This document shows, one piece after another, positions 35-14,847 of a stretch of 38,600 nucleotides of DNA. The position numbers and the translations under genes were made by a program. Position 1 is the first letter of the stretch. The number at the start of each line of letters is the position of its first letter. Under the pieces are notes generated by a model. It searched no databases. It was given only the letters and a program-made list of their open reading frames with translations, and was not told the DNA's origin. Source of the DNA: Candidatus Levybacteria bacterium GW2011_GWA1_37_16. Lineage in GTDB: Bacteria; Patescibacteriota; Microgenomatia; Levybacterales; UBA12049. Location: positions 1 through 38,600 of the forward strand of contig CALRDJ010000004.1 of assembly GCA_943354875.1 (NCBI GenBank), read 5' to 3'.

Positions 35-119
35 GGAGAGGTCGCATAGTGGCCTAGTGCAGAGGTTTACTAAACCTCCGTATCGCAAGATACCGCGAGT
101 TCAAATCTCGCCCTCTCCG
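35..119 (+). tRNA. tRNA-Ser, anticodon ACT
   Basis: The acceptor stem GGAGAGG (35-41) pairs with CCTCTCC (112-118), and the discriminator base is G119. The anticodon stem GAGGT (62-66) pairs with ACCTC (74-78) around the 7-base loop TTACTAA, so the anticodon is ACT (69-71). A long variable arm with stem GTATC / GATAC and loop GCAA makes this a type II tRNA. The T arm is GCGAG / CTCGC with loop TTCAAAT. The long variable arm and the discriminator G fit serine, and ACT reads the AGT codon. CCA is not encoded. Bacterial tRNA-Ser for AGY codons normally carries GCT, so A34 is unusual. Confidence 0.9.
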
Positions 120-147
120 CCCTAATTAATTTCCAACTTTAATCTGC

Positions 148-153
148 TATACT
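148..153 (+). promoter_or_regulatory. Extended -10 box, leaderless promoter of the 160-483 gene
   Basis: TGC-TATACT is followed by exactly six bases and then the ATG at 160. Transcription starting about 7 bases after the -10 would begin on the start codon. No Shine-Dalgarno sequence precedes the gene. Confidence 0.6.
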
Positions 154-159
154 CATATC

Positions 160-483
160 ATGAAGGTAAACATTCGCCTCATATATCTCTATCTCTTTTC
201 CTTTATAGGACTCACTATTTTGGTCATCGGACTTATCCGCATGGTAGATTTGGGCATAAAAGTCTTCGTATTTAAAGACGCAGATAAATTCGAATATTCT
301 ATGCCAATTCCTGTGGAGGGTGGAAAAGATGTTATAGATCCAAAGACGGAAAAAATGAGACAAGAAACAGAACAAACCAGATCCAGACAACGCGAAACCT
401 CGGGGTCAGTCGCCATGATTCTCGTGGGACTTCCTCTCTACATCGCCCACTGGAGAATGATTAAAAAAGAAAATAAAAGCTAA
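160..483 (+). CDS. Small membrane protein of unknown function
   Basis: 107 residues. A hydrophobic helix at about residues 8-30 and a shorter one near 85-98 flank a hydrophilic middle rich in Glu, Gln, Arg and Lys (residues 55-82). The protein therefore probably sits in the cytoplasmic membrane with one soluble loop. I do not recognise a family and assign no function. The start is supported by the extended -10 box six bases upstream. The gene follows the tRNA and is monocistronic, because a hairpin terminator begins two bases after the stop codon. Confidence 0.65.
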   Translation: MKVNIRLIYLYLFSFIGLTILVIGLIRMVDLGIKVFVFKDADKFEYSMPIPVEGGKDVIDPKTEKMRQETEQTRSRQRETSGSVAMILVGLPLYIAHWRMIKKENKS

Positions 484-484
484 T

Positions 485-503
485 AGTTCTCCGAAGGACT
501 TTT
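485..503 (+). terminator. Rho-independent terminator
   Basis: The stem AGTTCT (485-490) pairs with AGGACT (495-500), with one G-T pair, around the loop CCGA, followed by TTTATTAT. It lies directly after the stop of the 160-483 gene. Confidence 0.6.
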
Positions 504-527
504 ATTATGCAGGGGTAGACGTAGGGC

Positions 528-1070
528 TTATCGATCTGGATTTTTTGCTTCTCTCATTATTTCGTCCATAATACTCCAATAGTCTGATTCTTTTCTCGCA
601 CGAAGCTGTTCGGGACTATTCAAGGGAAGAATCGCAGCACTCTTTTTCGCATCAGAAAACCTTTCTTTCGCATGGTTCTCCAAATCACTCAATGTTAATG
701 CTCGTATCGCAGTAAGATCTGCCTGAGTTGTACCATACTTACTAAACTCATCTGCTCTCATATTTTTCCAGCCATCAAATTTTTCACGAATTTTTCCTAC
801 TACTTCTCTTCTCGGTGTATTTTTCACCCAATCAGGATTTATTCCTATAAAAAAAATGCGCATATGACCATCTAACCGACTCTGCAGGCCTTCATCAGCT
901 AGGTCATTTGATCGTCCGCCTTCAGGCACCATATCTTGAGCAAATTCAGTACTATGGAAGGACCCACGTGTTCTTGGAGGAAATAAAGGCTCGTCTGGCC
1001 TCCTGGCTCTAAAAAGTGCGTCTAAGGCATCTGCGGTTCCACTATTTGGCACGTCTTCTGGTCCATTCAT
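528..1070 (-). CDS. Uncharacterised single-module protein, paralogue of the 1117-2397 gene
   Basis: 180 residues. Residues 1-65 are hydrophilic and probably disordered. Residues about 68-175 form one copy of a module found three times in the neighbouring 426-residue protein. Its marks are an Arg-Glu-x-Phe-Asp-Gly-Trp-Lys core, an Ile-x-Ala-hydrophobic-x-x-Leu-Thr-Leu stretch leading into a helix with His-Ala-x-x-x-Phe, and a terminal Ser-x-Tyr-Trp. No signal peptide or membrane helix is visible, so it is probably cytoplasmic. The function is unknown and I know no named domain that matches. TATACT six bases before the ATG supports a leaderless start. The gene has its own promoter and is not in an operon with its paralogue. 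Confidence 0.7.
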   Translation of the reverse strand: MNGPEDVPNSGTADALDALFRARRPDEPLFPPRTRGSFHSTEFAQDMVPEGGRSNDLADEGLQSRLDGHMRIFFIGINPDWVKNTPRREVVGKIREKFDGWKNMRADEFSKYGTTQADLTAIRALTLSDLENHAKERFSDAKKSAAILPLNSPEQLRARKESDYWSIMDEIMREAKNPDR

Positions 1071-1076
1071 ACCTAT

Positions 1077-1085
1077 AGTATAACA
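1077..1085 (-). promoter_or_regulatory. Extended -10 box of the 528-1070 gene
   Basis: Read on the minus strand this is TGT-TATACT, then six bases, then ATG at 1070. The upstream 25 bases closely match those upstream of the paralogue at 2397, including a shared TAGCCTCAAT block. Confidence 0.6.
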
Positions 1086-1116
1086 AAATTGAGGCTAGAA
1101 ATCAAATCTACCGCTC

Positions 1117-2397
1117 CTATTCGACAGCTATCGAAATAGTCTGGTAATGTGCTTCCCAGTACTGTGATTTCCCTACCGCTTCTTTCTGATCATAGCTATA
1201 AGACTCAAGCATACGTGCAGCCTTGGCGTAACTATCAAATTTTTTATGTGCGTGTGCAGCCACATCCTCTACTCTCATTCCTCTAACAGCTGTCACTTCT
1301 CTCTTTCCTGCAAAACGCGCTTCTAAATCTTGTGATCTGGCTGACCTCCATCTCTCGAAGAATTCACGCATGTACCGACCGTCACGCTCTGCACCTGGAA
1401 TATCATGCATTTCTTTATCCAATGCGAAGAAAAACATATCCGTATGTTTCTCTATCTTTCTTCGTAACTCATCATCTGCAGCTTCGATTATAGGACTAAA
1501 AAGCTTGCTCACCACATTCCAATACTGCATTCTATAGGTTTTCATATCATGAGACCTGCTCACAGCACTAGGAATCTCATGGTCTGCTTGCGCTTTTTCG
1601 AACTGACCTCCCGCATATCTGGCCACATCTTCCAGAGATAACTCATGTATCGCATGTCTTTCGCTTATTGAGCTTAGTTTTATATCCATCCCGTGCGAGA
1701 GAGCTGCCTTCCAAGCTAAAAAATGCTCACGAACATGATTCAAGACTACTGCTCTAGGTAATCCATTTAATTCTTCTGCGGAGGTAGTGTCTCGGATAAA
1801 CCCGTCTATACGACAATCAAGAGATCTCTTAAATCTTTCATTTTCTGGCTCTGTCGCAGAGCTAACGAGGTCATCGATACCTGCCCAATGCTTCGCTAGT
1901 CTTTCTGAGTCTGCCTGCCGAGTGTTATCGATCTGGATCGAGTCTGCCTGATATAGGTAGTACTGCGCTTGTTCGTGAGCATAAGAAGCGATATCACCAA
2001 GTGTTAATTTCCTGAATGCGTCTATATCCTGCTCAGGCACGAATTCTACTTGCAGCAAGTATGCCCGAGAAGCTTTCCATCCATCAAACGATGTATGTAT
2101 GTGATCAATCTCATGTTTTCTGTTAGGATTATGAGGAGCATCTGGACTTATTGTCCGTACAAAATCTAACATATGATACGTCAATCTACCGCGCTCCTCT
2201 TTTTCTGTCTGTGTCGAAACGCCTGCCTCATGCCTTTGGAGCGGACTCTCGACATAACGAGCGAGAAGAAACTCCTGAGAAACCACAGACTGACCCAGAA
2301 GCTCTTGACGGGCGCCTGACCAATTCTCAAGGAAAAGATTATGCACTTCTTCTGCCAACTGCTGACCTTCTGATAATTGCTCTGGACCTTTTTGCAT
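1117..2397 (-). CDS. Uncharacterised protein with three tandem copies of a novel module of about 110 residues
   Basis: 426 residues, largely helical and charged, with no signal peptide or membrane segment. Three modules can be aligned by eye at residues about 70-178, 187-300 and 310-420. Each has a Phe-x-x-Trp-(Lys/Arg)-x-(Ala/Ser) core, then a (Leu/Val)-(Ser/Thr)-Leu-x-Asp-(Ile/Val)-Ala segment with Tyr-Ala or His-Ala, and ends near a conserved Tyr/His-Trp. Residues 21-34 look like the core of a fourth, truncated copy. The neighbour at 528-1070 carries one copy. Such tandem helical repeats often serve binding or scaffolding, but nothing here names a partner. The start is supported by TATACT six bases upstream of the ATG. 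Confidence 0.7.
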   Translation of the reverse strand: MQKGPEQLSEGQQLAEEVHNLFLENWSGARQELLGQSVVSQEFLLARYVESPLQRHEAGVSTQTEKEERGRLTYHMLDFVRTISPDAPHNPNRKHEIDHIHTSFDGWKASRAYLLQVEFVPEQDIDAFRKLTLGDIASYAHEQAQYYLYQADSIQIDNTRQADSERLAKHWAGIDDLVSSATEPENERFKRSLDCRIDGFIRDTTSAEELNGLPRAVVLNHVREHFLAWKAALSHGMDIKLSSISERHAIHELSLEDVARYAGGQFEKAQADHEIPSAVSRSHDMKTYRMQYWNVVSKLFSPIIEAADDELRRKIEKHTDMFFFALDKEMHDIPGAERDGRYMREFFERWRSARSQDLEARFAGKREVTAVRGMRVEDVAAHAHKKFDSYAKAARMLESYSYDQKEAVGKSQYWEAHYQTISIAVE

Positions 2398-2403
2398 GCA
2401 GAC

Positions 2404-2409
2404 AGTATA
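2404..2409 (-). promoter_or_regulatory. -10 box of the 1117-2397 gene
   Basis: TATACT on the minus strand ends six bases before the ATG at 2397, giving a predicted leaderless mRNA. The promoter region is similar in sequence to that of the paralogue at 1070. Confidence 0.55.
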
Positions 2410-2455
2410 GCGAGATTGAGGCTAAAAATCAAATTCTGACACCTGTCTATTCTGC

Positions 2456-2461
2456 TATAAT
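2456..2461 (+). promoter_or_regulatory. Extended -10 box of the exonuclease gene
   Basis: TGC-TATAAT lies eight bases upstream of the ATG at 2470, so the message is leaderless or nearly so. The divergent promoter of the 2397 gene lies about 50 bases away. Confidence 0.6.
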
Positions 2462-2469
2462 GATTTCTC

Positions 2470-3087
2470 ATGAACAAACTCTTTTTCGATATCGAGACAC
2501 TCCCCGCCTCTACTGAAAGCCACACGATCCTCCAGGAAATATACGACAGGCGAGTCAGTCATGCAGCTCCAGGAAAACCAGTGCCACCATTTACCGAATA
2601 TGTAGAAAAAAGTTCTTTTGATGGGGCGTTTGGTCGAATTGCCTGTATTTCATATGCGATAAATGACGATCCTGTCCAGACACTCTCAGGAGAAGAAAAA
2701 GATATACTCACGAAATTCTGGGAAATCGCCAGGAAAGTCGATGTGTTCGTCGGATTTAATATCATAGACTTTGATATGCGTTTTATTTTCCAGCGTTCGG
2801 TCATCTGGAACGTACGACCTACGAAGTATTTAAGTTTTGCCAGATACCGAAGTGATCCGATGTTTGATGTCATGTATGAATGGTCGAAGTGGAACATGCA
2901 GGATAAAATATCTCTAGATAGCCTAGCTAAGGCACTCGGCTTTCCCAGTTCGAAAGGTGGCACGATCGAAGGAAAAGACGTAGCCCAAGCATACCTCGAT
3001 GGCCGGATAAAAGAAATTTGTCAGTACTGCGAAAAAGACGTAGAGCTAACACGAAAAATCTATAAGAAAATGACCTTCGAGGCCTAA
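2470..3087 (+). CDS. DEDDy 3'-5' exonuclease, PolB-exonuclease-like
   Basis: 205 residues, a single RNase H-fold exonuclease domain. The three motifs are visible: Exo I as Phe-Phe-Asp-Ile-Glu-Thr at residues 5-10; Exo II as Gly-Phe-Asn-x-x-x-Phe-Asp near residue 95; and Exo III as Tyr-Cys-Glu-Lys-Asp near 187-191, the Tyr-x-x-x-Asp form of the DEDDy class. Such proteins resemble the proofreading domain of family B polymerases but lack a polymerase domain, and remove nucleotides from DNA 3' ends using two metal ions. The residue Asp in 'Leu-Asp-Ser-Leu' near 150 is also typical. It is cytoplasmic. The biological role is not shown by the neighbours. It is convergent with the 3093-4346 gene, five bases away. 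Confidence 0.88.
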   Translation: MNKLFFDIETLPASTESHTILQEIYDRRVSHAAPGKPVPPFTEYVEKSSFDGAFGRIACISYAINDDPVQTLSGEEKDILTKFWEIARKVDVFVGFNIIDFDMRFIFQRSVIWNVRPTKYLSFARYRSDPMFDVMYEWSKWNMQDKISLDSLAKALGFPSSKGGTIEGKDVAQAYLDGRIKEICQYCEKDVELTRKIYKKMTFEA

Positions 3088-3092
3088 CACTC

Positions 3093-4346
3093 TTACATCA
3101 TTCCGAAGTGAGGATACACACCCCATATGCTGCCACTGTACAAACAGTTAAACAAAACTCCTAAGATAATAAGCCCTATTGCTGTTTTGGACAATTTCCC
3201 ATCGAGACACGTGAGGAGGAGAATAATAAGAAATGGCATGAAATCGAGGGCATATCGATACCCAAATTGGGCATATCCGATACTGTACCACAGGAAAACC
3301 GGAAGTGTCAGTAGTAAGGTAGTGATAGCAGCAGACAGTGTATATTTTCCTTTTTTCCAAGCTAAAAGAAGCAGGAAGAGAGGAGAGGTGATCCATATCG
3401 CTACCCCCCATGGATTTGCTTTCATATAAGGAAACTTCAAAACCATTCCTCCATACACATCGACAAGTACTGGATCTGGAGGCATAAAAAGAAACGCATA
3501 AAGATTTGCAGGAAGATGTACGATACTTATCTCCTTCCCGTATTTTAGATTAACCCCTATAGGGAGATCGTGTGTCGAGATATTGTATCCATATCCTGTT
3601 TCAAACACTGAATGAAAACGTCGATTATTATATACTCCAAATGCTCCCAGCGCCAAAATGACCGGAATCATGAGCAAGACAAGCGAACGAAAAGAAAATC
3701 TTTTCTGCAAAAACTCCATACCGAAAAACATAAGGCTCAGCAGCAGAGTAAACCTACTCAGGAATGCCATGCTGATAAAAAGCCCTATGAGAAGTGGATG
3801 TTTTTTCGAAAAATATGCCCACAAACTGAGCAGTATAAACGCAAAACCAAGCGCCTGAACTTCATACGCGGATCCATTTATCACACTCGTACTAAATAAA
3901 ACGGTTGAGAAAACTATGAAAACTGAAAGCCACAGACTATCGACCCGATCAAATTTGAATTTCTTAGCTATAGAATAGGTAGCTATAAAAGAAGTGATTA
4001 GAGAAAATATACCGATACTGACCTGCGGAAATGACTGCCCAAAAACCAAAACAAATGGCATAAGCAAAATCGAAGATAACGGCCCAAAGTAGATATAGAA
4101 GTTGTTATGATAATTCGCTATATCTCGAACTGGTAAATTAATTACCGGAAGATCGAGATTCCAATGCAGAAACTGGTAAGCCAAAACCACGAGATCTATA
4201 TCATATCCTCTTTGACCTATGGTGAGATACAAATAAGTAGAATAAATCCCAAACCCAAGCATGAGAAGGAATAAAAATAATTTCCCATATTGCCTCAGGT
4301 ATAAAACTACGCTCATGAGTGAATTGTAGTACATCCAGCCTAACAT
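3093..4346 (-). CDS. Polytopic membrane protein, GT-C glycosyltransferase-like
   Basis: 417 residues with about ten hydrophobic helices spread along the whole length. An acidic pair (Tyr-Asp-Ile-Asp-Leu) in the first external loop, near residues 49-53, is followed by a Phe-Gly-Pro-Leu stretch. That layout matches the GT-C fold (ArnT/PMT-like), where a loop Asp is catalytic and the sugar donor is a polyprenyl phosphate. The inferred role is transfer of a sugar to lipid or protein at the outer face of the membrane. The assignment rests on topology and the loop acid, not on a clear family signature. Alternative starts exist at codons 5 and 11. It is the last gene of the LapA-Nudix operon. Confidence 0.6.
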   Translation of the reverse strand: MLGWMYYNSLMSVVLYLRQYGKLFLFLLMLGFGIYSTYLYLTIGQRGYDIDLVVLAYQFLHWNLDLPVINLPVRDIANYHNNFYIYFGPLSSILLMPFVLVFGQSFPQVSIGIFSLITSFIATYSIAKKFKFDRVDSLWLSVFIVFSTVLFSTSVINGSAYEVQALGFAFILLSLWAYFSKKHPLLIGLFISMAFLSRFTLLLSLMFFGMEFLQKRFSFRSLVLLMIPVILALGAFGVYNNRRFHSVFETGYGYNISTHDLPIGVNLKYGKEISIVHLPANLYAFLFMPPDPVLVDVYGGMVLKFPYMKANPWGVAIWITSPLFLLLLAWKKGKYTLSAAITTLLLTLPVFLWYSIGYAQFGYRYALDFMPFLIILLLTCLDGKLSKTAIGLIILGVLFNCLYSGSIWGVYPHFGMM

Positions 4347-4370
4347 TGCAGAGCAGGTTTGTTTATATAC

Positions 4371-4853
4371 TCAATTTAAAGTAGTAGCTCTCTTCAGAAG
4401 TTTTTTCTCATGAAGAGTGTGCTCGATAACGAAAAGCTGTTTTTTCGAAAGCAGTGGAAGATCATCAAAAGCGAAAAACTTCGCCTCGGTTACTTCGGCA
4501 CTTTTCCGAAATTCTCCACCGATAAATTTTCCTAAAAATCCGATCTCGATACGAGATGATTCTCTGTCGGTTCTGATTTCTAGTTCTTCATCCACGCTCA
4601 CGATAAGACCTGATTCTTCTTCGATTTCTCGCTCGAGAGCTTCCTGCGGGTGCTCTTTCGCTTTTATATATCCACCAGGCAAACTCCACGGTGTCTGGCG
4701 ATAGGTATGTCGAAAAAGCAGAACTTCATTCTTATCATTCAGAATAATTCCGGATACACCGATGAGAAACTGATCCTGAAGAATCCGCATGACGAAAAGC
4801 TGTAGAGGTTTTGATAATTTAAGCGCGCGCCAGATTTTAGCGAGGGTTCCCAT
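4371..4853 (-). CDS. Nudix hydrolase
   Basis: 160 residues. A complete Nudix box (G-x5-E-x7-R-E-x-x-E-E-x-G-hydrophobic) spans about residues 57-80, with Gly-Gly-Tyr-Ile before it and Arg-Glu-Ile-Glu-Glu-Glu-Ser-Gly inside, so the metal-binding glutamates are intact. The family hydrolyses nucleoside diphosphates linked to another moiety; the substrate cannot be read from the sequence. An N-terminal extension of about 30 residues precedes the fold. The ATG lies two bases after the stop of the LapA-like gene, so the two are co-transcribed, and the membrane protein gene follows 24 bases later. Confidence 0.88.
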   Translation of the reverse strand: MGTLAKIWRALKLSKPLQLFVMRILQDQFLIGVSGIILNDKNEVLLFRHTYRQTPWSLPGGYIKAKEHPQEALEREIEEESGLIVSVDEELEIRTDRESSRIEIGFLGKFIGGEFRKSAEVTEAKFFAFDDLPLLSKKQLFVIEHTLHEKKLLKRATTLN

Positions 4854-4855
4854 GA

Positions 4856-5197
4856 TTATAAAGATTTATCATCCGCTGGATGACCTGATTCTGCTCTGAG
4901 GCGTTCGTTTTCGAGTTCTATCTGATGTACCCGTTTCGTCAATTCGGCTACTTCCTTATGCGCATCTTTTAGCGCACTATCTTTTCCATGAATTCTAAAA
5001 TATGAAGAAACCCCATCTACCAGACTTATCAGCCAGCTCACGACAAATCCCACGAGCAAAGATCCGAGGGCGATCAGATACAGTGGGATCCCTGAATAAG
5101 AATAATTAGCCAGGGTTATGGAAGCCGTTTGGGTATTTTGGGTAGCGAAATACGCTCCACCAATACCGAATAAAACCAATACTACGAGAACAAACAT
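4856..5197 (-). CDS. LapA-domain (DUF1049-like) membrane protein
   Basis: 113 residues. Two transmembrane helices (about 2-18 and 40-60) are separated by a short outer loop with the Gln-Asn-x-Gln pattern followed by Val/Ile-x-Leu that marks LapA proteins. After the second helix comes a cytoplasmic coiled coil (about 75-105) rich in Glu, Leu and Arg. In other bacteria LapA pairs with LapB in controlling lipopolysaccharide assembly; here, without an outer membrane, that role would not apply, so only the fold is assigned. First gene of a three-gene operon with the Nudix and GT-C-like genes. Confidence 0.7.
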   Translation of the reverse strand: MFVLVVLVLFGIGGAYFATQNTQTASITLANYSYSGIPLYLIALGSLLVGFVVSWLISLVDGVSSYFRIHGKDSALKDAHKEVAELTKRVHQIELENERLRAESGHPADDKSL

Positions 5198-5319
5198 AGC
5201 TAATTAGAATATAACCTGATTTTCCTCCATTTGCAAGAACTAGGATGTGAATGCTTAAGTATTTTACCTATATTGAAAAGCTTATATCTTTTAAAGTACC
5301 TAATGAGTAGAGCTTACAC

Positions 5320-5353
5320 ACGATTAAGACTTAGCTAGCTGAGTCTTAATCGT
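5320..5353. repeat. Perfect 12-bp inverted repeat
   Basis: The 12-base arm at 5320-5331 (ACGATTAAGACT) is the exact complement of 5342-5353, with a 10-base loop that itself contains two AGCT copies. It lies 15 bases beyond the stop of the frameshifted stress-like gene and 120 bases upstream of the LapA-like gene. No T-run follows on either strand, so it could be a terminator of a non-canonical type, a protein-binding site or a scar. The rest of 5198-5368 shows nothing clear. Confidence 0.7.
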
Positions 5354-5368
5354 AATCTCTTAGAGAAG

Positions 5369-5897
5369 TTATTTCGAGTCTACGGATTTAATATCCGATG
5401 CATCATTGTTATTGAATACATCTTCTACCTCATTTATTTCTTCTCCTTTTACAGGAACTGCCACCACTATTCCACCTTCGTTTACTCTAGTTTCGTATAA
5501 CTTAGATTCATCTTCGGTTAATCCTAAGTTAGCGAATCCACCCAGCAAACCTCCTGCAACTGCTCCTGTAGTAGCTCCAGAAACGGTTGTTGCGACTGCA
5601 CCAGTCAAGCCAAGTGCTGCAGCAATAGGACCACCTATAAAGATAGCTCCAAGTCCAGGAAGTACCGCTGCTGCAACGAGACCAGCTAGTCCTCCAAGTA
5701 TCAACCCTGCGGTTGCACCTGAGGTAGCTCCCTCTGCTACATCTGTACCGGCACTTTTTTCTAGTACTTGTCTATCTTCTTTGTTTTTAAGAATAAATGG
5801 ATAAATCTTTTGGATTATATCCCAACTCCTTTAGGTCGGAAATTGCAGATTCTGCATTTTCTCGATCTGTAAAAACTCCTAGTACTGTTTTCTTCAT
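5369..5897 (-). pseudogene. GSP17M/YflT-like glycine-zipper protein gene with a +1 frame break
   Basis: From an ATG at 5897 with an excellent Shine-Dalgarno (AGGAGGTGA, 8 bases upstream), 36 codons read as the start of a GSP17M (YflT) domain: Val-Leu-Gly-Val-Phe, then Asp-Arg-Glu-Asn-Ala-Glu. A TAA (5787-5789) then stops this frame. The next frame continues without a gap as the rest of the same family: about 60 residues of Gly/Ala-rich helix pairs (glycine zipper), then Glu-Ser-Lys-Leu-Tyr-Glu and Gly-Gly-Ile-Val-Val-Ala-Val. One base too many between about 5787 and 5839 would explain this. It is a mutation, a sequencing error or a programmed +1 shift. The intact C-terminal part argues for a recent event or recoding. 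Homologues are general-stress proteins of unknown mechanism. Confidence 0.7.
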
Positions 5898-6002
5898 ATT
5901 ATTTCTCACCTCCTTTCTTTTCTTAATCTGGATCAATAATAGGAAAAACAAATTAAAGTACCATGATAGTTAAGTAAGAGGAATGTAAGATGCGAGGATT
6001 TC

Positions 6003-6024
6003 AGTAGTTAATTATTCTGCCGTA
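6003..6024. repeat. Degenerate direct copy of the ftsZ 3' end (outer left att candidate)
   Basis: Twenty of 22 bases match 13610-13631, the last codons, stop and first downstream bases of ftsZ, in the same orientation; only the two central bases differ (AT against CC). On the minus strand it reads as a Leu-Arg-Gln-Asn-Asn-stop tail. It lies about 7.6 kb from ftsZ, with an integrase and accessory genes between. I read it as the displaced att half-site left by site-specific integration. Confidence 0.65.
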
Positions 6025-6067
6025 AGGATCTGACTCACATTGCTAAAGGAGAACGAGCCTCGCCTTT

Positions 6068-6100
6068 TTAATTTCGTTGACGTAAAAATGCGGGAATTCC
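6068..6100 (-). repeat. Second copy of the ftsZ tail-coding sequence (inner left att candidate)
   Basis: Read on the minus strand, this encodes [10 protein letters not shown]-stop; the real FtsZ ends [10 protein letters not shown]. Five of the nine shared codons are identical and the other four differ only synonymously. A 12-base block, AAATGCGGGAAT, is identical at 6086-6097 and 13633-13644 and is a good candidate crossover core. No complete gene surrounds it: the frame is closed by a TGA about 100 bases upstream and has no ATG. Confidence 0.7.
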
Positions 6101-6111
6101 TAAGACAAGTC

Positions 6112-6182
6112 CTTTCTTTGAAGCTAATTTCAAACTAAAGCACCCTATTGAAAAATTTACCTTTTTAAGCCTTCGAAGAAAG
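6112..6182. other. Long-stem hairpin upstream of the reverse transcriptase gene
   Basis: Bases 6112-6123 pair with 6171-6182 over 12 positions (11 Watson-Crick, one G-T), enclosing 47 bases, with further partial pairing just inside. It ends 35 bases before the -10 box of the reverse transcriptase gene. Several Abi/UG reverse transcriptase systems use a nearby structured RNA, so this is the first candidate for one here. I see no independent promoter clearly driving it. The rest of the 5898-6228 gap holds the ftsZ-tail copies and the Shine-Dalgarno of the 5897 gene. Confidence 0.45.
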
Positions 6183-6213
6183 AATAGTACATTTCAGCAA
6201 AAATTTCAATCTC

Positions 6214-6222
6214 TGGTATAAT
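6214..6222 (+). promoter_or_regulatory. Extended -10 promoter of the reverse transcriptase gene
   Basis: TGG-TATAAT followed by exactly six bases and ATG at 6229 predicts a leaderless mRNA. The -35 position holds only a weak match (TTCAGC at 6193-6198). Confidence 0.65.
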
Positions 6223-6228
6223 TCACCC

Positions 6229-7722
6229 ATGAAGAATACGATTCTAGATATAGACCATGATGAAGTAAACAAATTTTTCTTAAATCAAGATTCATATATC
6301 ACTACTGAGATACCTCCCTATTACAGGTTTAATCGAATACTTTCACTAGTTTCTAAGAAGATGAACGGCTCTACAGTGATGGAAAAACGTCTGGAAGCAG
6401 CAAAAAAAAATAGCAATGTTAACCATGTAATATACGGGAACAAAAATGGAAAATATGAATGGCGTAAGTTTGAGCTTATACATCCTGTCCTATATATATC
6501 CTTAATCAACACCCTGACCAGTGAAGAATCATGGAAAACTATTCGAGATCGATTTGAAGAAATTGGTCAAAATAGCTCAATTGAATGTATGAGCATACCA
6601 GTACTCCCCAGAAATAAACAAAAACAAAAAGCCTCACAGATAACCGAATGGGTTGAATCTATGGAAAAAGAATCCATAAAACTTTCTTTGGATTATGAGT
6701 ATCTTTTTCAAACAGATATCTCAAATTGCTATGGATCAATTTACACTCATTCTATCTCATGGGCTCTCCACGGCAAAGAAGTCGCAAAAAATAATAGGAG
6801 ATATAAAGACCTACTAGGCAATAGGATAGATTGCCATCTCCAAGCTATGTCTTACGGGCAGACGAACGGAATTCCCCTAGGAAGTCAGGTTATGAATTTT
6901 ATTGCAGAGATAGTTTTGGCATATGCAGACGAGAAATTATCTGAAAAAATAGGCAGACGTATAAAAAAAGGTGATTATCATATTTTGCGCTACCGTGACG
7001 ACTACAGAATATTCGTACGGACTCCCTATAATGGCGAGTTCATTATGAAAGCATTAAGCGAAATATTGATTGATCTTGGGATGACACTAAGTGCAAAAAA
7101 AACCATTAGGAGTGAAAAAATTGTCATTGATTCAATCAAGCCAGGCAAAATTGCTTCTTACCATGAGTTAACACCTAAAGTATTTACTCATCATTCGCTA
7201 CGAAAAGAGCTTCTTATGATTTATGAATTTGGTACTAAATTTCCTCACAGTAGAATCATTGATAAAAGACTGGAACACGTCCTTAAAGCCACAGCTCCAA
7301 ATATACTTCAAGATAATTATGAGGAAATCGTTGCCATACTTACAAACATAGTTTTTGAAAATCCTAATTCTTTTCCAGTAGCAGCAGCCCTAATAAGCAA
7401 AGCTATTTATCCACTTAAAAAAGGAGAGACAAGAAAAATATTAGATAAGCTTTTTAGGAAAATTCATCTACTACCAAACTCAGGAATTTTAGAAATCTGG
7501 CTACAAAGGATAACAGCGGCAAATAAAGTTGACTATCCGTACTACGAAAAGCTCTGTTCCGTAACAAAAGGGGATAAGGTATCACTATTCAACTCAGAAT
7601 GGATTATTAGTGATTCTATGAAGCAGATAGTCGAGGAGACACTAATTGTCGACCCTGAAGAGATAGAAAATCTCGATAGGATTATTGAAAATAAGGAAGT
7701 GGAACTATATAGACCTTATTAA
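6229..7722 (+). CDS. Reverse transcriptase of the Abi/UG (defence-associated, DRT-like) type
   Basis: 497 residues. Palm motifs are visible in order: motif A with Gln-Thr-Asp-Ile-Ser-Asn-Cys-Tyr near residues 163-170, followed by Tyr-Thr-His-Ser-Ile; motif B as Gly-Ile-Pro-Leu-Gly-Ser with a downstream Ala-Glu-x-x-Leu and Asp; and the catalytic Tyr-Arg-Asp-Asp near 260-263. Leu-Ser-Ala-Lys-Lys-Thr follows as motif D. The Gly-(Ile/Leu)-Pro-x-Gly motif B and a helical C-terminal region of about 190 residues without a maturase domain fit the Abi/UG groups that include phage-defence reverse transcriptases. I cannot assign the exact group. It stands alone on the plus strand inside the putative element. 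Codon use looks more A-rich than in the wall genes. Confidence 0.85.
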   Translation: MKNTILDIDHDEVNKFFLNQDSYITTEIPPYYRFNRILSLVSKKMNGSTVMEKRLEAAKKNSNVNHVIYGNKNGKYEWRKFELIHPVLYISLINTLTSEESWKTIRDRFEEIGQNSSIECMSIPVLPRNKQKQKASQITEWVESMEKESIKLSLDYEYLFQTDISNCYGSIYTHSISWALHGKEVAKNNRRYKDLLGNRIDCHLQAMSYGQTNGIPLGSQVMNFIAEIVLAYADEKLSEKIGRRIKKGDYHILRYRDDYRIFVRTPYNGEFIMKALSEILIDLGMTLSAKKTIRSEKIVIDSIKPGKIASYHELTPKVFTHHSLRKELLMIYEFGTKFPHSRIIDKRLEHVLKATAPNILQDNYEEIVAILTNIVFENPNSFPVAAALISKAIYPLKKGETRKILDKLFRKIHLLPNSGILEIWLQRITAANKVDYPYYEKLCSVTKGDKVSLFNSEWIISDSMKQIVEETLIVDPEEIENLDRIIENKEVELYRPY

Positions 7723-7990: not shown

Positions 7991-8248
7991 TTATCTGAAT
8001 TTTTTAGGAGTTGTCTTAAAAGGATTAACGGTGCCCATTTTGCCACTGAAAGGGTTTATGTTACCTTTTGAAGAGAAATTATCCAGCTTTGATTTGTTAG
8101 GTGATGTTTTATAATGCGGAGCAACATAACTACCATTTTTTTTCGTGTAACCTTTTACCCCTTGTAACGCTTCTACGCTTGGTACAGAGGCTAAGGAGAA
8201 AGATGTTATTAAAAGAAATGCTAGTAAGCCAAAAAGAATCTTCCTCAT
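7991..8248 (-). CDS. Small secreted protein with GYTKKNGSYVAPHY-type motif
   Basis: 85 residues from the ATG at 8248, which is chosen because TATAAT (8255-8260) ends six bases upstream; an upstream TTG is less likely. Residues 1-27 form a signal peptide (Lys, then a long hydrophobic stretch, ending Ser-Val-Glu-Ala). The mature part has the Gly-Tyr-Thr-x-Lys-x-Gly-x-Tyr-Val-x-Pro-His motif, then Gly-Asn-x-Asn-Pro-Phe-x-Gly-Lys and Gly-Thr-Val-Asn-Pro-Phe. I know this motif set from many small exported bacterial and phage proteins of unknown function. It is exported, possibly surface-bound. The 268 bases between the reverse transcriptase stop and this gene hold only a short TCTG/CAGA hairpin and no convincing gene. 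Confidence 0.75.
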   Translation of the reverse strand: MRKILFGLLAFLLITSFSLASVPSVEALQGVKGYTKKNGSYVAPHYKTSPNKSKLDNFSSKGNINPFSGKMGTVNPFKTTPKKFR

Positions 8249-8272
8249 AAATTTATTATATAACAATTATCT

Positions 8273-8620
8273 CTATTCATTCTCGTCAACATATGATTGC
8301 ATGCCCTCCCTAAATGACTCAGAATTGCCCGAATAGTCATCGACATCATCTTGTGTTATACCCTTCTCCTCAGCCCACTCATAACCTGCCTCATGTCCAC
8401 TACAATCCTCTGTACAAGGATCTCCGTTAAATTCTAGGCCATTTGTTGTATCAATATTTTCCTCCGTTTGCTCAGATTCAATATCCTCATCAGGATAATC
8501 ATCAGAATTAACGGTAGAGACTGATGAACTTTCGCTTCTTGCAGTGCTAGAGCTTGATGAAGAACTAGAAATGAATAAAATTAAAATAGAAAAAGTAGCG
8601 ACTATTAAAATCCACTTCAT
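8273..8620 (-). CDS. Secreted or anchored acidic protein with Cys/Gly-His-Ala-Gly-Tyr motif
   Basis: 115 residues. A hydrophobic segment at 3-18 is followed by a run of eight serines and an acidic linker rich in Asp, Glu and Ser (to about residue 65). The C-terminal 45 residues contain Cys-x-x-x-Cys-x-Gly-His-x-Ala-Gly-Tyr-x-Trp-Ala and later Ser-x-Ser-Phe-x-Glu-Gly, a small domain seen in many exported proteins of unknown function. In relatives I recall, further cysteines sit near the second half; here those positions are not Cys. Membrane anchoring by the uncleaved N-terminal helix is likely. Same strand as its neighbours, 24 bases from the next gene. Confidence 0.65.
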   Translation of the reverse strand: MKWILIVATFSILILFISSSSSSSSTARSESSSVSTVNSDDYPDEDIESEQTEENIDTTNGLEFNGDPCTEDCSGHEAGYEWAEEKGITQDDVDDYSGNSESFREGMQSYVDENE

Positions 8621-8637
8621 ATAATTACAACTCGTGA

Positions 8638-8841
8638 CTATTTTAGCCTACAGTACGACTTATGACAATGATACTGATTTAAATTTACCCCATATTTAGC
8701 ACAATAACTCTTACTTTTTCTGCAGTGGTGCCCGCCATTCCTATCTAAACCACCAGGAGATGCTTCTGCGGGTCGTGCCGTAGTCAATGAGAAGGAAAAC
8801 ATTAATGCAAGAGCAATTAAACTAAGAAAAACCTTTTTCAT
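8638..8841 (-). CDS. Small secreted Cys/His-rich protein (YHCH-type motif)
   Basis: 67 residues from the ATG at 8841. That start is preferred to the in-frame ATG at 8859 because TGC-TATGAT lies six bases upstream of it and would overlap the longer version. The signal peptide runs to about residue 27 (Ala-Glu-Ala). The mature part, Gly-Gly-Leu-Asp-x-Asn-Gly-Gly-His-His, ends in Tyr-His-Cys-His and three more cysteines, like the small zinc-binding YHCH segment found attached to secreted nucleases. It is much shorter than those nucleases and has no catalytic domain, so only metal binding and export are inferred. Confidence 0.7.
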   Translation of the reverse strand: MKKVFLSLIALALMFSFSLTTARPAEASPGGLDRNGGHHCRKSKSYCAKYGVNLNQYHCHKSYCRLK

Positions 8842-8848
8842 GACCTGA

Positions 8849-8953
8849 TCATAGCACATATCTACATACTGTCGTCTGGTTTGGGGGATTTTTTCTAAGT
8901 TCCTGCTGAACCCGCTGATAATTCAGGTACTCTTTCCAGGCTTGCTTGAATGC
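8849..8953 (-). pseudogene. Possible coding remnant
   Basis: This minus-strand frame reads Ala-Phe-Lys-Gln-Ala-Trp-Lys-Glu-Tyr-Leu and continues for 34 codons with a protein-like, amphipathic composition, but it has no start. It is preceded in frame by a TAA (8954-8956) and about 17 further plausible codons. It overlaps the promoter of the 8841 gene. It may be the decayed end of an element gene. No family is recognised. Confidence 0.3.
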
Positions 8954-9012
8954 TTAATCCGCTGTTTTCCTTTGGTTGAAGTAAGGGTGATTAGTCGTTT
9001 CATATGCAGTCG

Positions 9013-10050
9013 TTATATTGGATACTGGGAATTACACGTGATTACGGCCTGATCGTAGTATCCCTGACTTATTTGTATACATGCAGGACCAGTGCTACTC
9101 TGCATGCCATATAGATTTATACACTGTTGTTTCTGATTATTGAACGTAAGCGCTGCATCAGTTTTACATTCCTGATTGAGCTCAGAATTATTATTCTGCT
9201 GTTGTATTACAGGATCAGGAGTAACTACAGCCTGTGTATTGCTTGATGGAATGTATGGCTTGTCGGAGCTCTTAAATGAATCACAAGAGGATTGCGTTAA
9301 TTGATACGTTCCATAACTAAGAGTACACGTTACTAATGGCTGTGCAGAAGAACCTGTCTGTGTAGGTATTTGTGGCGGTTTAGTATTGTGTAGGGCGGTA
9401 AGTGCATTTTGATCTTGCACACACTTGTCTTTTGAATTATAAAAAAGCCACTGAGGACCAATTTGACAGCAGGTTGTCTGGGAACATGCATTTTTTCTTA
9501 ACCGAACACTTCCTCCCCCACAGTTACTGCTTATGTTACAGGTAACGAATGGGTCTGGGTCAGGAATAGGGGTAGGGGCTTTATAAACAGGCTGAGCGAC
9601 AGTAGGAACCGCATATACAGGAGCGCTTGTTGGTACTTCTATTTCTGGCGCTAGAGATTGAGGCACAGATTTCGTATACAGCCCGAGTACGAAATTTAGT
9701 GCAGCGTCGTTCGTACTCAAGAGGATGAGGAACCCCACGATAATCACTGCCAATACAAGGTTTATCCACGGAAGCACTCTTTGTATTTTATCTTGCTCAA
9801 CCCATTTTTTAACTCGAAAATAAGGTTTCACTTTCCCCATCTTTTTAATAGAAACTCCTTTGTCTCCAATGCTTAGATAGTCATAGCCTCTATTTTCAAA
9901 CTCAGCACGTAAGGCTCCATGATATTCTCCTCTTGCACTTACCCAACCTGGATTTCCTACATCTCGATTAAAAGCATCTATAAGTTCTTTATCGCTCATG
10001 GCCTTAAACCGTTTCTGAAATTCATTATAGTGTCTTTGTATCTGTTTCAT
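9013..10050 (-). CDS. Single-pass membrane protein with exported Cys-rich region
   Basis: 345 residues. Residues 1-75 form a small cytoplasmic domain (Met-Ser-Asp-Lys-Glu-Leu-Ile, Trp-Val-Ser-Ala-Arg, Glu-Phe-Glu-Asn-Arg-Gly-Tyr-Asp), similar to short hypothetical proteins of phages and plasmids. One transmembrane helix follows at about 93-115. The exported part has a Pro/Ala/Val-rich linker and then about a dozen cysteines, including Cys-x-x-x-x-Cys-Cys, probably forming disulphides. The function is unknown; the build suggests a surface receptor or binding protein. It is the third gene of an operon behind 10668-11204 and 10063-10671 (12 bases downstream of the latter). Confidence 0.65.
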   Translation of the reverse strand: MKQIQRHYNEFQKRFKAMSDKELIDAFNRDVGNPGWVSARGEYHGALRAEFENRGYDYLSIGDKGVSIKKMGKVKPYFRVKKWVEQDKIQRVLPWINLVLAVIIVGFLILLSTNDAALNFVLGLYTKSVPQSLAPEIEVPTSAPVYAVPTVAQPVYKAPTPIPDPDPFVTCNISSNCGGGSVRLRKNACSQTTCCQIGPQWLFYNSKDKCVQDQNALTALHNTKPPQIPTQTGSSAQPLVTCTLSYGTYQLTQSSCDSFKSSDKPYIPSSNTQAVVTPDPVIQQQNNNSELNQECKTDAALTFNNQKQQCINLYGMQSSTGPACIQISQGYYDQAVITCNSQYPI

Positions 10051-10062
10051 TTATAAAAACTC

Positions 10063-10671
10063 TTACAGAGCATGTTTTCTGTCGTGAAGATAAACCCCGT
10101 ACTGCTTTTGGATTTTCTGCATTTCTTTCTCTGTGAAATTTTTGTTTTGCCAGAATCCTCGTAACTCGTAACTGTCGTCTGCAAGCTTATAAATCCACAC
10201 ATTAAAAAGTCTGTCCTGCTTATCTTGGAAAATGATATTTATCTCCTTACCGCCTGCGACACTATCATTTATCCCGAAAACAATAAATTTGCTTTTATAA
10301 TAGTCTTTACTAAAAGAGTCTAAGCCAGCAATGGTTCCATCCTCTGCTTTATCTGGCGGTATCGCAAGTAACTCTATCCCTTCATTTTTTCCTGCTAAAT
10401 AATTAACAAAAGCTTTTCTGATATGTAAAACGAAGGGATTAGTATACGAAGTATAATAGCTCTGAAGTTGTTCTTCAGTAAAATGGAGTTCCTGCACCTT
10501 CTCTTCTGTTGGCGCTACCGCGAGGCTAATAGCTAGCTCCTTTCCCGTATGGGTCGTTGAATTTTTACCACTGCTTCGATAGGACACGAGGAAAAAACCT
10601 AGCAATAGGATGACTACGGAAAGTAATGTTATTGTCTTCTTGCTTATCATTCTATACGACCTGCTCCTCAT
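10063..10671 (-). CDS. Membrane-anchored exported protein of unknown function
   Basis: 202 residues. A basic N-terminus and one hydrophobic helix (about 10-31) precede a soluble domain of about 165 residues with mixed helix and strand character. It has no cysteine and no recognised motif. It could be a signal anchor or a cleaved signal peptide. The ATG overlaps the stop of the upstream gene by four bases (ATGA), so the two are translationally coupled. An internal ATG at codon 8 is an alternative start. No function is assigned. Confidence 0.6.
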   Translation of the reverse strand: MRSRSYRMISKKTITLLSVVILLLGFFLVSYRSSGKNSTTHTGKELAISLAVAPTEEKVQELHFTEEQLQSYYTSYTNPFVLHIRKAFVNYLAGKNEGIELLAIPPDKAEDGTIAGLDSFSKDYYKSKFIVFGINDSVAGGKEINIIFQDKQDRLFNVWIYKLADDSYELRGFWQNKNFTEKEMQKIQKQYGVYLHDRKHAL

Positions 10672-11204
10672 GAGCTCTCACAAGGAATTCCGTTATTGTC
10701 TGAATCAAGATTGTATGGATCATATGTTTCTTTGTGTTCCACAAGAATCGTTCTTAGGGTAAAATAACTGTTAGGATCATCACTATTATCTAGAATTCTT
10801 AATGCACTCTGATTGTTCATACCCCCTATATATTCATAAAACTGTCGGGCTTCATCTCTGTCTGCGAAATCGGAGCATCGAATATCTGATTTATTATCGA
10901 TTAGCGTATCAAACATCTTCTTAAGAGGGTCATACTCACGTGCTAATACAAAACACGTGTTAATATCCTCTCGCGTCACTGTAGGCTTGTATACTTCCTT
11001 ACATAGTTCGTGTAGATCAGAAATATTCATAACCGATGTGTGGTTTTTTATTCCAGACTTTTTAATATATGAACTTAACGGTCTCCAGATCATGATACTA
11101 AGTAAAAGTAGTGATATGCTAGCCATCAAAATATACAAAAAATTGATTCTTTTTGTATCTGATTGACTGTTGTAATTTTTTTTATTAACTTCTGTATGAT
11201 TCAC
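10668..11204 (-). CDS. Membrane-anchored protein with split Excalibur-like motif
   Basis: 178 residues from a GTG at 11204 with GGAGGG about six bases upstream. A transmembrane helix lies at about residues 21-42. The exported part contains Cys-Ser-Asp-Phe-Ala-Asp-Arg-Asp-Glu-Ala and Tyr-Ile-Gly-Gly, and about 40 residues later Asp-Pro-Tyr-Asn-Leu-Asp-Ser-Asp-Asn-Asn-Gly-Ile-Pro-Cys-Glu. These are the two halves of the Excalibur calcium-binding domain, which are normally contiguous; here they are separated by an insert. Export and calcium binding outside the cell are inferred. First gene of a three-gene operon, directly behind the folded RNA leader at 11205-11332. Confidence 0.65.
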   Translation of the reverse strand: MNHTEVNKKNYNSQSDTKRINFLYILMASISLLLLSIMIWRPLSSYIKKSGIKNHTSVMNISDLHELCKEVYKPTVTREDINTCFVLAREYDPLKKMFDTLIDNKSDIRCSDFADRDEARQFYEYIGGMNNQSALRILDNSDDPNSYFTLRTILVEHKETYDPYNLDSDNNGIPCESS

Positions 11205-11540: not shown

Positions 11541-11663
11541 AGATCGAGGAAAGCTAAACCGTCCTTAAAGTGCTTCCACTTGCGAGATAATTTCTTGCCA
11601 CATTTTGGAGCCACGATTTTCTGACACTTGTCGTGAGACAGTCAGAATTTCCGTGGTTTTTTT
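11541..11663 (+). ncRNA. Possible small RNA ending in an intrinsic terminator
   Basis: On the plus strand, TTGACT at 11501-11506 and TGA-TATCCT with an 18-base gap form a plausible promoter. About 120 bases later a large hairpin (11611-11656) is followed by seven T's. Between them a small hairpin AAGTG-CTTC-CACTT is visible. This could be a free-standing RNA or an attenuated leader of the 11675 gene. The promoter is only moderate and the RNA is not matched to any known class. Confidence 0.35.
11611..11663 (+). terminator. Intrinsic terminator hairpin with T-run
   Basis: CCACG/CGTGG, then TTCTGAC/GTCAGAA, then TGTC/GACA capped by GTGA form a three-part stem, followed immediately by TTTTTTT (11657-11663). 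It sits 11 bases upstream of the ATG at 11675, so it either ends an upstream RNA or attenuates the following gene. Confidence 0.65.
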
Positions 11664-11674
11664 GTGACAAAATT

Positions 11675-12073
11675 ATGCGCAATGTATATGAAACCGCCAA
11701 GAAAGCCTTAAACAGGAATGCTTCTGTTAGAGGAAACGATACTGGTACCTACAAACAAGAGCATAACTCCGAGGAAAAATCACGCAAATTGGAAGCAATC
11801 CAAAGATTAAAACGTTTAAATTACCGCACCCCAGCATCGGAGATTGAGTCATGCCTGAACATAATCTTTGATCCTTGGGAAAAGAACCCCGAATATTGGC
11901 TCCACATCGCCCAACACTATACCCCAAAAACGATTAACAGTATTCTCGCCCAGATGATTAAGCAGCACAGGAGAAAAGACATAAGCATTAAAAACACAGG
12001 CGCCTATTTTTCTTCTGTAATCAAATACCGACGTAAAAGGAAAATTTTTAGACGTACCAATGGAACTCGATAA
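11675..12073 (+). CDS. Hypothetical basic protein of the element
   Basis: 132 residues from the ATG at 11675. A GTG at 11633 would extend it, but that lies inside the terminator hairpin and is unlikely. The protein is basic and helical. The second half has Tyr-Thr-Pro-Lys-Thr-Ile-Asn-Ser-Ile-Leu and Lys-Asn-Thr-Gly-Ala-Tyr-Phe, a pattern resembling the C-terminal helical segment of some plasmid and phage replication proteins (Asn-Pro-Gly-Ala-Tyr-x); that likeness is weak. There is no signal peptide or membrane helix. It is followed three bases later by the 12077 gene, so both are probably co-transcribed. Confidence 0.55.
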   Translation: MRNVYETAKKALNRNASVRGNDTGTYKQEHNSEEKSRKLEAIQRLKRLNYRTPASEIESCLNIIFDPWEKNPEYWLHIAQHYTPKTINSILAQMIKQHRRKDISIKNTGAYFSSVIKYRRKRKIFRRTNGTR

Positions 12074-12076
12074 TTC

Positions 12077-12331
12077 ATGAATAATTACACATTAAAACTT
12101 TACAAAAATAACGGAGAGGTAGAAACAGTCAGAACCAAGAAAAAGAAACGTTTTTTTAGAATTTTACGCATGATAGATTGGCAAAATCACATTAAAAATG
12201 CCTATCTTAAAATATCTTATGGAAAGAAGAAATGTACCGAAGGATGTCTATGTGATTTTTATAACGATGGTTATTACGCCAATAAAGAGGATATGCTGGA
12301 GACTTTTAAATATTTTAATGAGGAGAAGTAA
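12077..12331 (+). CDS. Small hypothetical protein with Cys pair
   Basis: 84 residues, very basic in the first half (a Lys-Lys-Lys-Lys-Arg run near residue 22), with Cys-Thr-Glu-Gly-Cys-Leu-Cys near 55-61 that could bind a metal, and an acidic C-terminus. There is no signal peptide. The ATG lies three bases after the stop of the 11675 gene. I do not recognise the family. The downstream gap to the convergent integrase (12332-12442) holds one copy of the repeats that flank the integrase. Confidence 0.5.
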   Translation: MNNYTLKLYKNNGEVETVRTKKKKRFFRILRMIDWQNHIKNAYLKISYGKKKCTEGCLCDFYNDGYYANKEDMLETFKYFNEEK

Positions 12332-12442: not shown

Positions 12443-13456
12443 TCAAGATTTAATAGAAATATCAAATCTTATTCTCCCACTTTCTTCGATCATATTGTAT
12501 TCGAAGCGCGGATCGCTTTTTAAATGTAGGTTTTCAAAATTTTCTTTTATAATTCTTAGAATCTCTTGTGGGTCGATGTTTTTTCTCACCATTGGATGTC
12601 GCATAGCTGCTCTTTCCAGTGTCTTGTCCGCTAAGTGCATGTAGGTACTGTAGGTCGTCTGAATGTCTTTGTGCCCAACCAATGTTGCCACTTCCGTAAT
12701 GGGAACTCCTGCCTCAAGCATGTGCGTAATATACGAATGTCTGAAGTTGTGAGGAAACGTACGCTTAATTACTCCTGCAGCGATGGCTCTCCGTTTTAAA
12801 TCCGCGCTAAAATCGGTTACCTGAATCTGAGACTCCATAGAATTTCTAAAAACTCTATCTTTTGGCTTCCTATCTCTTATCATCTCTATCAGATTGCTCT
12901 TCAGTGGTTCTGTAAAATACGCTGTCCTATTTTCATTTGTCTTCGTGTTCACGAACGTGGCTTTTCCTGCACTTATATCGACGTGCTCAGCCGTTAATTC
13001 TGCCGCCTCTGAATAACGGCACCCTGTATAAGCAAGAAACATGGTCATCGTTCTGAAACGAAAATCTAAAAAATTACTGTCTTTTCCATGAAACTTACCA
13101 TAGGTAAGTTTTGTATTCAATATCTTTTCAATTTCTTCAGGAGTAAAAATCACGATGTCTGGCTTGGTCTTCTTAAACGATTTGAAACCATCGAAGAAAT
13201 CTGAAGGAAATCCCCTGTCTTTACAGTATAAAACCAGTTGTCGGAAAGCAAACTGGTAGGTGTTGAGGGTGTTGTTCTTTAATCTTTTCTCCTTTAACTG
13301 GAGAAAGAAGAGTTCTACATTTTCTTTCGTTAATTCTTTATCTGCAAACCACTCATTAATGATCCCGACACGACACATGCAGTGACGGATACTCTGCGGT
13401 GCTAAACCGAGTTTAATCGTAATAAATGATCTGAAATCTGATTCGACGATCTGCAT
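12443..13456 (-). CDS. Tyrosine recombinase / phage-type integrase
   Basis: 337 residues. The N-terminal SAM-like core-binding domain (1-105) is followed by the catalytic domain. The catalytic set is present: Arg in Thr-Gly-Cys-Arg-Tyr-Ser-Glu, the His-x-x-Arg box as His-Asn-Phe-Arg-His, a second His in Val-Gly-His-Lys-Asp, and the nucleophile Tyr in Tyr-Ser-Thr-Tyr-Met-His. About 50 residues follow the tyrosine, longer than in XerC/XerD. It would integrate and excise the surrounding element; its position 160 bases from the ftsZ 3' end, next to the repeat, matches int genes beside their att site. The start region lies in a hairpin that hides the ribosome-binding site. Confidence 0.9.
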   Translation of the reverse strand: MQIVESDFRSFITIKLGLAPQSIRHCMCRVGIINEWFADKELTKENVELFFLQLKEKRLKNNTLNTYQFAFRQLVLYCKDRGFPSDFFDGFKSFKKTKPDIVIFTPEEIEKILNTKLTYGKFHGKDSNFLDFRFRTMTMFLAYTGCRYSEAAELTAEHVDISAGKATFVNTKTNENRTAYFTEPLKSNLIEMIRDRKPKDRVFRNSMESQIQVTDFSADLKRRAIAAGVIKRTFPHNFRHSYITHMLEAGVPITEVATLVGHKDIQTTYSTYMHLADKTLERAAMRHPMVRKNIDPQEILRIIKENFENLHLKSDPRFEYNMIEESGRIRFDISIKS

Positions 13457-13566: not shown

Positions 13567-13591
13567 TTAAAAAAGCACCTCATCGGTGCTT
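13567..13591 (-). terminator. ftsZ: Terminator of ftsZ
   Basis: On the minus strand AAGCACC-GATGA-GGTGCTT is followed by a T-run. It is a perfect 7-bp stem 24 bases after the ftsZ stop, ending the division operon before the integrase. If the att interpretation is right, this terminator came with the element. Confidence 0.85.
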
Positions 13592-13609
13592 GATCTGAAA
13601 GTAGCTTCT

Positions 13610-13644
13610 AGTAGTTAATTCCTCTGCCGTAGAAATGCGGGAAT
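13610..13644. repeat. ftsZ 3' end att candidate (right side)
   Basis: This covers the last nine codons, stop and five following bases of ftsZ. Positions 13610-13631 match 6003-6024 (20 of 22), and 13633-13644 match 6086-6097 exactly. Taken as the right-hand attachment site. Confidence 0.6.
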
Positions 13645-14793: not shown

Positions 14794-14847
14794 TTGCAAG
14801 AATCCTAACAGATCGTATATTTTTTTGCAAGCCCTGTTTCGATTGTC

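Follow-up and report, generated by a model that had tools for sequence, protein, structure and literature searches.

A 7.55-kb element with a tyrosine recombinase very probably replaces the end of ftsZ in a Levybacteria genome while leaving the FtsZ protein unchanged

The window analysed here, the whole 38,600-nucleotide stretch of DNA, carries ftsZ on the minus strand, and a second copy of the last codons of this gene, which is single-copy in the genome, lies further along the same strand. The features that define the two gene endings are the following.

13615 to 14799, minus strand: ftsZ, the target gene (Tubulin/FtsZ family PF00091, E 4.4e-50; 394 aa from the called TTG, with an ATG two codons in)
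13633 to 13644, minus strand: core copy at ftsZ, ATTCCCGCATTT, comprising the Ile-Pro-Ala-Phe codons (attL); identical to 6086 to 6097
13615 to 13632, minus strand: resident end of ftsZ, CTACGGCAGAGGAATTAA, encoding LRQRN-stop; apparently element-borne, its 3′ flank matching only ends of related elements
6086 to 6097, minus strand: core copy at the distal end (attR), with 12-bp identity to 13633 to 13644
6068 to 6097, minus strand: displaced ftsZ tail, recognised by sequence comparison with the resident tail

Read on the minus strand from 6097 to 6068, the displaced tail is ATT CCC GCA TTT TTA CGT CAA CGA AAT TAA, i.e. IPAFLRQRN-stop, just as an earlier sequence-only reading of this DNA had translated it. 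The resident tail (minus strand, 13644 to 13615) reads ATT CCC GCA TTT CTA CGG CAG AGG AAT TAA. Four of the nine codons differ between them (TTA/CTA, CGT/CGG, CAA/CAG and CGA/AGG, 5 nt altogether), all synonymously, which is also what had been claimed; of the span given then, 6068 to 6100, the tail proper occupies 6068 to 6097 and bases 6098 to 6100 belong to the element end. The 12-bp core is identical in both tails, and the differences begin directly 3′ of it. A chance origin of the displaced tail is excluded, because none of 82 genomes of the order matches the degenerate tail pattern in reversed form and the peptide would be kept after five random changes with P ~5e-4.

The two tails enclose 7.55 kb of DNA bounded by the cores at 13633–13644 and 6086–6097. 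In our assessment this is very probably an integrative element, the tyrosine recombinase of which targets the 3′ end of ftsZ and replaces the ending of the gene, with the FtsZ protein staying as it was. The element sits in the last codons of ftsZ, and the old ending now lies ~7.5 kb away. From the ftsZ side to the distal end, its features are as follows.

13585 to 13608, minus strand: proximal end motif GAAGCTACTTTCAGATCAAGCACC, a probable arm site; inverted repeat of 6120 to 6144, similar in the sister elements L080, L082 and L134
13573 to 13591, minus strand: terminator hairpin (AAGCACC-GATGA-GGTGCTT plus T run) 3′ of the ftsZ stop, supplied by the element; equivalent hairpin in L080, L081, L082 and L134
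13515 to 13543, minus strand: promoter-like site TTGAAT-17-TATAAT upstream of the integrase gene, called purely by consensus match
12443 to 13456, minus strand: tyrosine recombinase (integrase), 337 aa (PF00589, E 2e-30; PHROG integrase; alignment)
11633 to 12331, plus strand: two small element ORFs, no function assigned in Pfam/PHROG-type profile scans
7991 to 11204, minus strand: other element ORFs, small exported/membrane proteins, one with a weak Excalibur-domain match
10063 to 10671, minus strand: element protein with the motif YYxxYxNPxVxxLRKAxxxYLA, common to the sister elements L080, L081 and L082 (ORFs read)
6229 to 7722, plus strand: cargo, predicted AbiP2-type defence reverse transcriptase, 497 aa (PADLOC AbiP2, E 9e-173, residues 2–495; RVT_1)
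6098 to 6196, plus strand: distal element end, ~95 bp, with the half-site GTCTTAGGA beside the core (on the minus strand), then the end motif 6120 to 6144

The integrase gene starts 158 bp past the ftsZ stop, is intact, adjoins one attachment site and lies inside the mobile unit, between both cores; residues R147, K172, H236, R239, H262 and Y272 are conserved in the alignment. The terminal inverted repeat (13585–13608 and 6120–6144) is matched in score by 2 of 5000 shuffles. Given the full-length profile match, the cargo gene is predicted to be an AbiP2-type, anti-phage reverse transcriptase, here carried by an element of a CPR bacterium (6229–7722, plus strand). A PHROG scan of ten element proteins returned the integrase, the reverse transcriptase and unknowns only, with no phage structural or packaging genes, and no conjugation genes were recognised in the element. 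Elsewhere in the window, at 5369–5951 (minus strand), there is a stress-protein-like gene with an apparent frameshift split near 5810 (MKKTVLGVFTDRENAESAISDLKELGYNPKDLS...), the Gly-rich C-terminal part being in another frame.

Which of the two tails belongs to the host is decided by the flanks and not by tail alignment, since the 30 bp are saturated at silent sites. The 50 bp past the resident stop score 68, 39, 33, 29 and 29 against the element ends of L082, L081, L134, L080 and L075, respectively, versus at most 22–23 against other flanks and shuffles. With a 3′ flank that nothing but the ends of related elements matches, the resident end of ftsZ appears to be element-borne. For the 50 bp past the displaced stop the best match is the flank of the resident ftsZ in genome G026 (26 versus a shuffle maximum of 22). 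In relatives from several genera, host genes (ileS, rodA, rplU) come next after the outermost displaced tail, and a redoxin gene after the displaced tail is common to G003 and G062; the window host is without the ileS neighbour found in relatives, and therefore for the window the host-gene argument is one by analogy. Codon usage favours the displaced tail as the host-like one, but so weakly (lnL −5.5 versus −7.2) that we dropped it as a deciding criterion. Judged by the flanks, then, ftsZ now ends in the tail of the element, and the displaced tail is the ending that ftsZ carried before the insertion. This directly supports the first of two options that the sequence-only reading had left standing, namely that the element swapped the host tail, as the 3′ flank of the resident tail is of element type.

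Silent-only divergence is general among such tails. Across 19 adjacent tail pairs at 16 loci we counted 84 synonymous versus 5 nonsynonymous codon differences, where random change would be expected to yield ~71 nonsynonymous ones, bearing in mind that the tail searches were partly peptide-based and hence deplete nonsynonymous cases. Since copies were found partly by their peptide, codons 6–10 provide a fairer test, and here the count is 51 to 3; some bias remains, as the order-wide pattern fixed those codons too. These numbers fit a history in which each tail would have ended an ftsZ in service before its displacement. The earlier proposal that both tails had evolved under selection as FtsZ ends before being joined holds for the window and extends to the 19 pairs.

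The arrangement recurs in other Microgenomatia. Within the order, 69 of 82 genomes match the tail pattern, and 13 of the 82 do so two or three times, always on the same strand. Integrase relatives from the same family (loci L080 to L082; G064, G062 and G061 at 64, 50 and 43% identity) all adjoin an ftsZ tail or tail array and have another tail 6–7 kb off. An ftsZ tail also adjoins the relatives in other families of the class, comprising profile matches at E <1e-100 in G142, G330, G228 and G322, plus G288. The weaker relatives in G107 and G117 (~1e-58) have no ftsZ motif or tail nearby, and so only close integrase relatives are tied to ftsZ. No match outside the family was detected at 1e-60 among 380 evenly sampled genomes of the phylum, and within that sample the integrase seems restricted to this class; relatives in the public record come from Ca. 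Levyibacteriota, Gottesmanbacteria and Daviesbacteria. In L046 (G027) a good FtsZ tail copy at 2193–2222 (minus strand) lies ~1.7 kb downstream of ftsZ in the opposite orientation to it. G039 has a partial FtsZ match at a contig end.

Phages are found at these tails as well. A fourth relative in the family, in G024 (L083, contig G024:C7), has a distant integrase (26% identical) that adjoins a displaced FtsZ tail on a contig without ftsZ and with phage packaging genes (portal- and terminase-like genes, read by eye); this prophage suggests that phages use the same site. On the viral contig L134 (IMGVR_UViG_3300027835_000014, 70–7385), an FtsZ tail outside any ftsZ forms the junction between a sister element, whose integrase is 74% identical, and a phage that has a second integrase. 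Two further pattern scans of viral contigs found the L134 contig alone. The PHROG scan ruled out that the window element is itself a phage, even if phages do occur at this site in L083 and L134.

The sequences suggest how insertion could proceed. The right recognition arm would be formed by the Phe-Leu-Arg-Gln codons (TTTCTAAGACAG type), inverted relative to a left arm that would be either the Val-Trp-Asp codons of ftsZ itself (GTCTGGGAC) or the element end (GTCTTAGGA). The integrase would exchange strands between the arms, inside ATTCCCGCAT. We place the exchange most likely in the Ile-Pro-Ala codons because the displaced-side half-site TGTCTTAGRAAT is an inverted repeat of ATTTCTAAGACA, a common Phe-Leu-Arg-Gln spelling in the clade; the core is identical in both copies, differences lie only to its right, and the element half-site lies to its left. 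This interval is drawn from sequence identity, and the cores of L113 show two silent differences from each other. Before insertion, ftsZ would have ended TTA CGT CAA CGA AAT TAA, followed by AAAAGGCGAGGCTCG. The element circle, should the element still be mobile, would carry the right half-site with the reading frame intact, the predicted junction being GTCTTAGGA-ATTCCCGCATTT-CTACGGCAGAGG. Since exchange would fall in the Ile-Pro-Ala codons, the element would bring its own tail end, stop and terminator, and insertion would swap the last codons, stop and terminator of ftsZ for these. The previous tail would stay at the far end as the displaced copy, and later insertions at the ftsZ copy would push older tails outward.

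Beyond the displaced tail there are two more features.

6049 to 6066, minus strand: hairpin AAGGCGAGGCTCGTTCTC 3′ of the displaced tail; sole match in the genome, and at the equal position after the ftsZ stop in G026
5999 to 6024, minus strand: older, decayed tail TACGGCAGAATAATTAACTACTGAA, LRQNN-stop (score 35, against a maximum of 24 in 5000 shuffles)

The decayed tail lies 44 bp beyond the displaced one, and has an element-type flank (CTACT); in between is a hairpin unit of the kind that separates tails in other genomes. Given this decayed tail and hairpin unit, the 6068 tail may itself stem from an earlier small-unit insertion. In that case a unit of ~70 bp (tail plus hairpin) would have inserted first, 5999–6024 would be the original host end, and the large element would have come second, a history to which we assign an even chance and which is a variant of the main explanation, not an alternative to it. 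It accounts for the third tail, for the tail-hairpin-tail units that also occur in G026, G061, G070, G072 and G094, and for the hairpin directly after the ftsZ stop in G026. However, the 5999 copy matches the resident tail together with its element-type flank and is without the CCCGC core at left, which would also fit a worn end left by a different element, and the hairpin could be the native ftsZ terminator. The second option of the sequence-only reading, an older element that brought in its own tail, is also plausible for an earlier step. Elsewhere, units of ~45–65 bp that consist of an FtsZ tail and a GC-rich hairpin, with another tail directly after them, were seen in L082 (3953–4040), L124 (1029), L114 (3864), L115 (1341 and 3082) and L060 (14278). 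Such units are possibly the smallest mobile units at ftsZ.

Not all DNA inserted at ftsZ carries an integrase. We built a profile of the 95-bp distal end from five integrase-bearing elements, leaving out the core and tail, and searched 1.0 Mb of ftsZ-flanking DNA with it. In at least eight further genomes it matched (E 1e-10 to 5e-4) ends that lie flush with the tails of cassettes lacking an integrase, with several consecutive ones in G033, where ~six to seven short cassettes, most of them closed by the common 95-bp end, are lined up behind ftsZ (L066, G033:C23, 795–8410) and contain NYN and Fic/Doc genes along with genes without assigned function. Among the cassette cargo are NYN nucleases, Fic/Doc proteins together with a MazE-like partner, DUF3800 and an HSP90-like ATPase. 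The cassettes in L055, L066, L114, L115 and L121 fit the description of CIMEs, which have no integrase but retain attL and attR. A recurrent gene set (an ITRPNHD...NGHGSE protein plus small partners) was observed near the ftsZ tail in L075, L113, L117 and L069, which belong to different families; two L075 proteins of this set have no Pfam or PADLOC match.

These cassettes could reflect integron-like traffic, in which an integrase acting in trans captures and shuffles integrase-less cassettes of one or two genes each with ftsZ as the platform, the window element being one integrase-bearing member. The G033 row and the recurrence of NYN nuclease, Fic/Doc and DUF3800 cargo at ftsZ in different genera speak for it. 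Against it, the window element is self-contained, the decay of larger elements (CIMEs) would yield the same picture, and at eight sites attC-like single-strand folding is absent (z −1.1 to +1.7 versus shuffles), unlike in integrons; we regard this reading as possible but on the doubtful side. The cassette data fit accretion of cis-mobilisable elements (PMC5704250). With slightly more confidence, yet still tentatively, we propose that the FtsZ tail codons may be a standing capture platform in Microgenomatia, at which integrase-bearing elements, prophages and integrase-less cassettes of one or two genes, many of them defence- or toxin-like, stack in arrays; the recombinase family of the elements would also move, in trans, the cassettes, which have the ~95-bp end in common with the elements. 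If true, the system would resemble an integron but act on double-stranded sites that consist of host codons, and the FtsZ C-terminal peptide would have been repeatedly inherited from mobile DNA.

Two explanations that dispense with a gene-replacing element fare far worse. If the end of ftsZ had been duplicated in tandem or gene-converted and had then drifted silently, with no site-specific recombination, two similar tails in direct orientation would result, as observed; but the likeness stops at the core and at the stop, no locus that we read has a duplicated stretch running upstream into ftsZ, the insert is equipped with an integrase, with inverted repeats at its termini and with ends that are conserved between genera, and silent-only drift is not expected in an untranslated copy, all of which makes this account very improbable. 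Least probable of all is an unrelated gene that ends at 6068 and came to resemble the FtsZ C-terminus independently, for although the frame is open for ~40 codons upstream, the longest start-codon ORF up to this stop comprises 21 codons and begins with a TTG, its upstream part is a conserved element end found beside tails in many genomes, and a different full-length gene, the rival that the sequence-only reading had named, was looked for and not found.

The C-terminal peptide of FtsZ is a docking point for division partners and essential in well-studied bacteria. With replacement by an integrative element as the preferred reading, the codons for this tail would also serve as a recombination site that mobile DNA swaps repeatedly without changing the protein, and displaced tails would form an ordered record of past insertions. 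The end of ftsZ would be a marker for the place at which small mobile and defence cassettes reside in uncultured CPR bacteria, among them the AbiP2 reverse transcriptase. Searching for ftsZ tails could make such elements easy to locate in any genome of the Microgenomatia, and the tail looks like a natural integration site that preserves the gene.

PMC12884075 describes in general terms elements that restore the gene into which they insert, and PMC12803456 mentions icd as the site of phage 21 and e14. Gene-rebuilding elements are thus already known, and what appears to be new here is ftsZ as the target gene, the unusually short exchanged segment and the stacking of small cassettes in CPR bacteria; in the part of the literature that we searched, there was no report of ftsZ as the target of such elements. 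In E. coli, the gene end that prophages 21 and e14 supply to icd differs silently from that of the host. The window element resembles these lambdoid prophages in having an intact tyrosine recombinase, a core at both ends and a protein-keeping replacement end in the 3′ coding part of a housekeeping gene; it differs in that its target is ftsZ, ~six codons are exchanged, the host belongs to the Microgenomatia and there are no recognisable phage structural genes. SCC at rlmH likewise occupies the 3′ end of a housekeeping gene, with direct repeats that encode the C-terminus of the gene product and with tandem composites, but SCC uses serine recombinases (ccr genes), whereas the recombinase of the window element is of the tyrosine type. 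In ICESt1-type tandem accretion a CIME is without an integrase, whereas the window element carries its own. Tycheposons also use a tyrosine recombinase, carry interchangeable cargo and repair the gene that they enter; the genes that they restore encode tRNAs, in contrast to the protein-coding gene restored here. Finally, mobile integrons share with the ftsZ system the tyrosine recombinase and, in the case of G033, consecutive cassettes of one or two genes behind a fixed gene, but at ftsZ there is no attC-like fold, the attachment site consists of host gene codons and the integrase moves with the element instead of staying beside a fixed attI.
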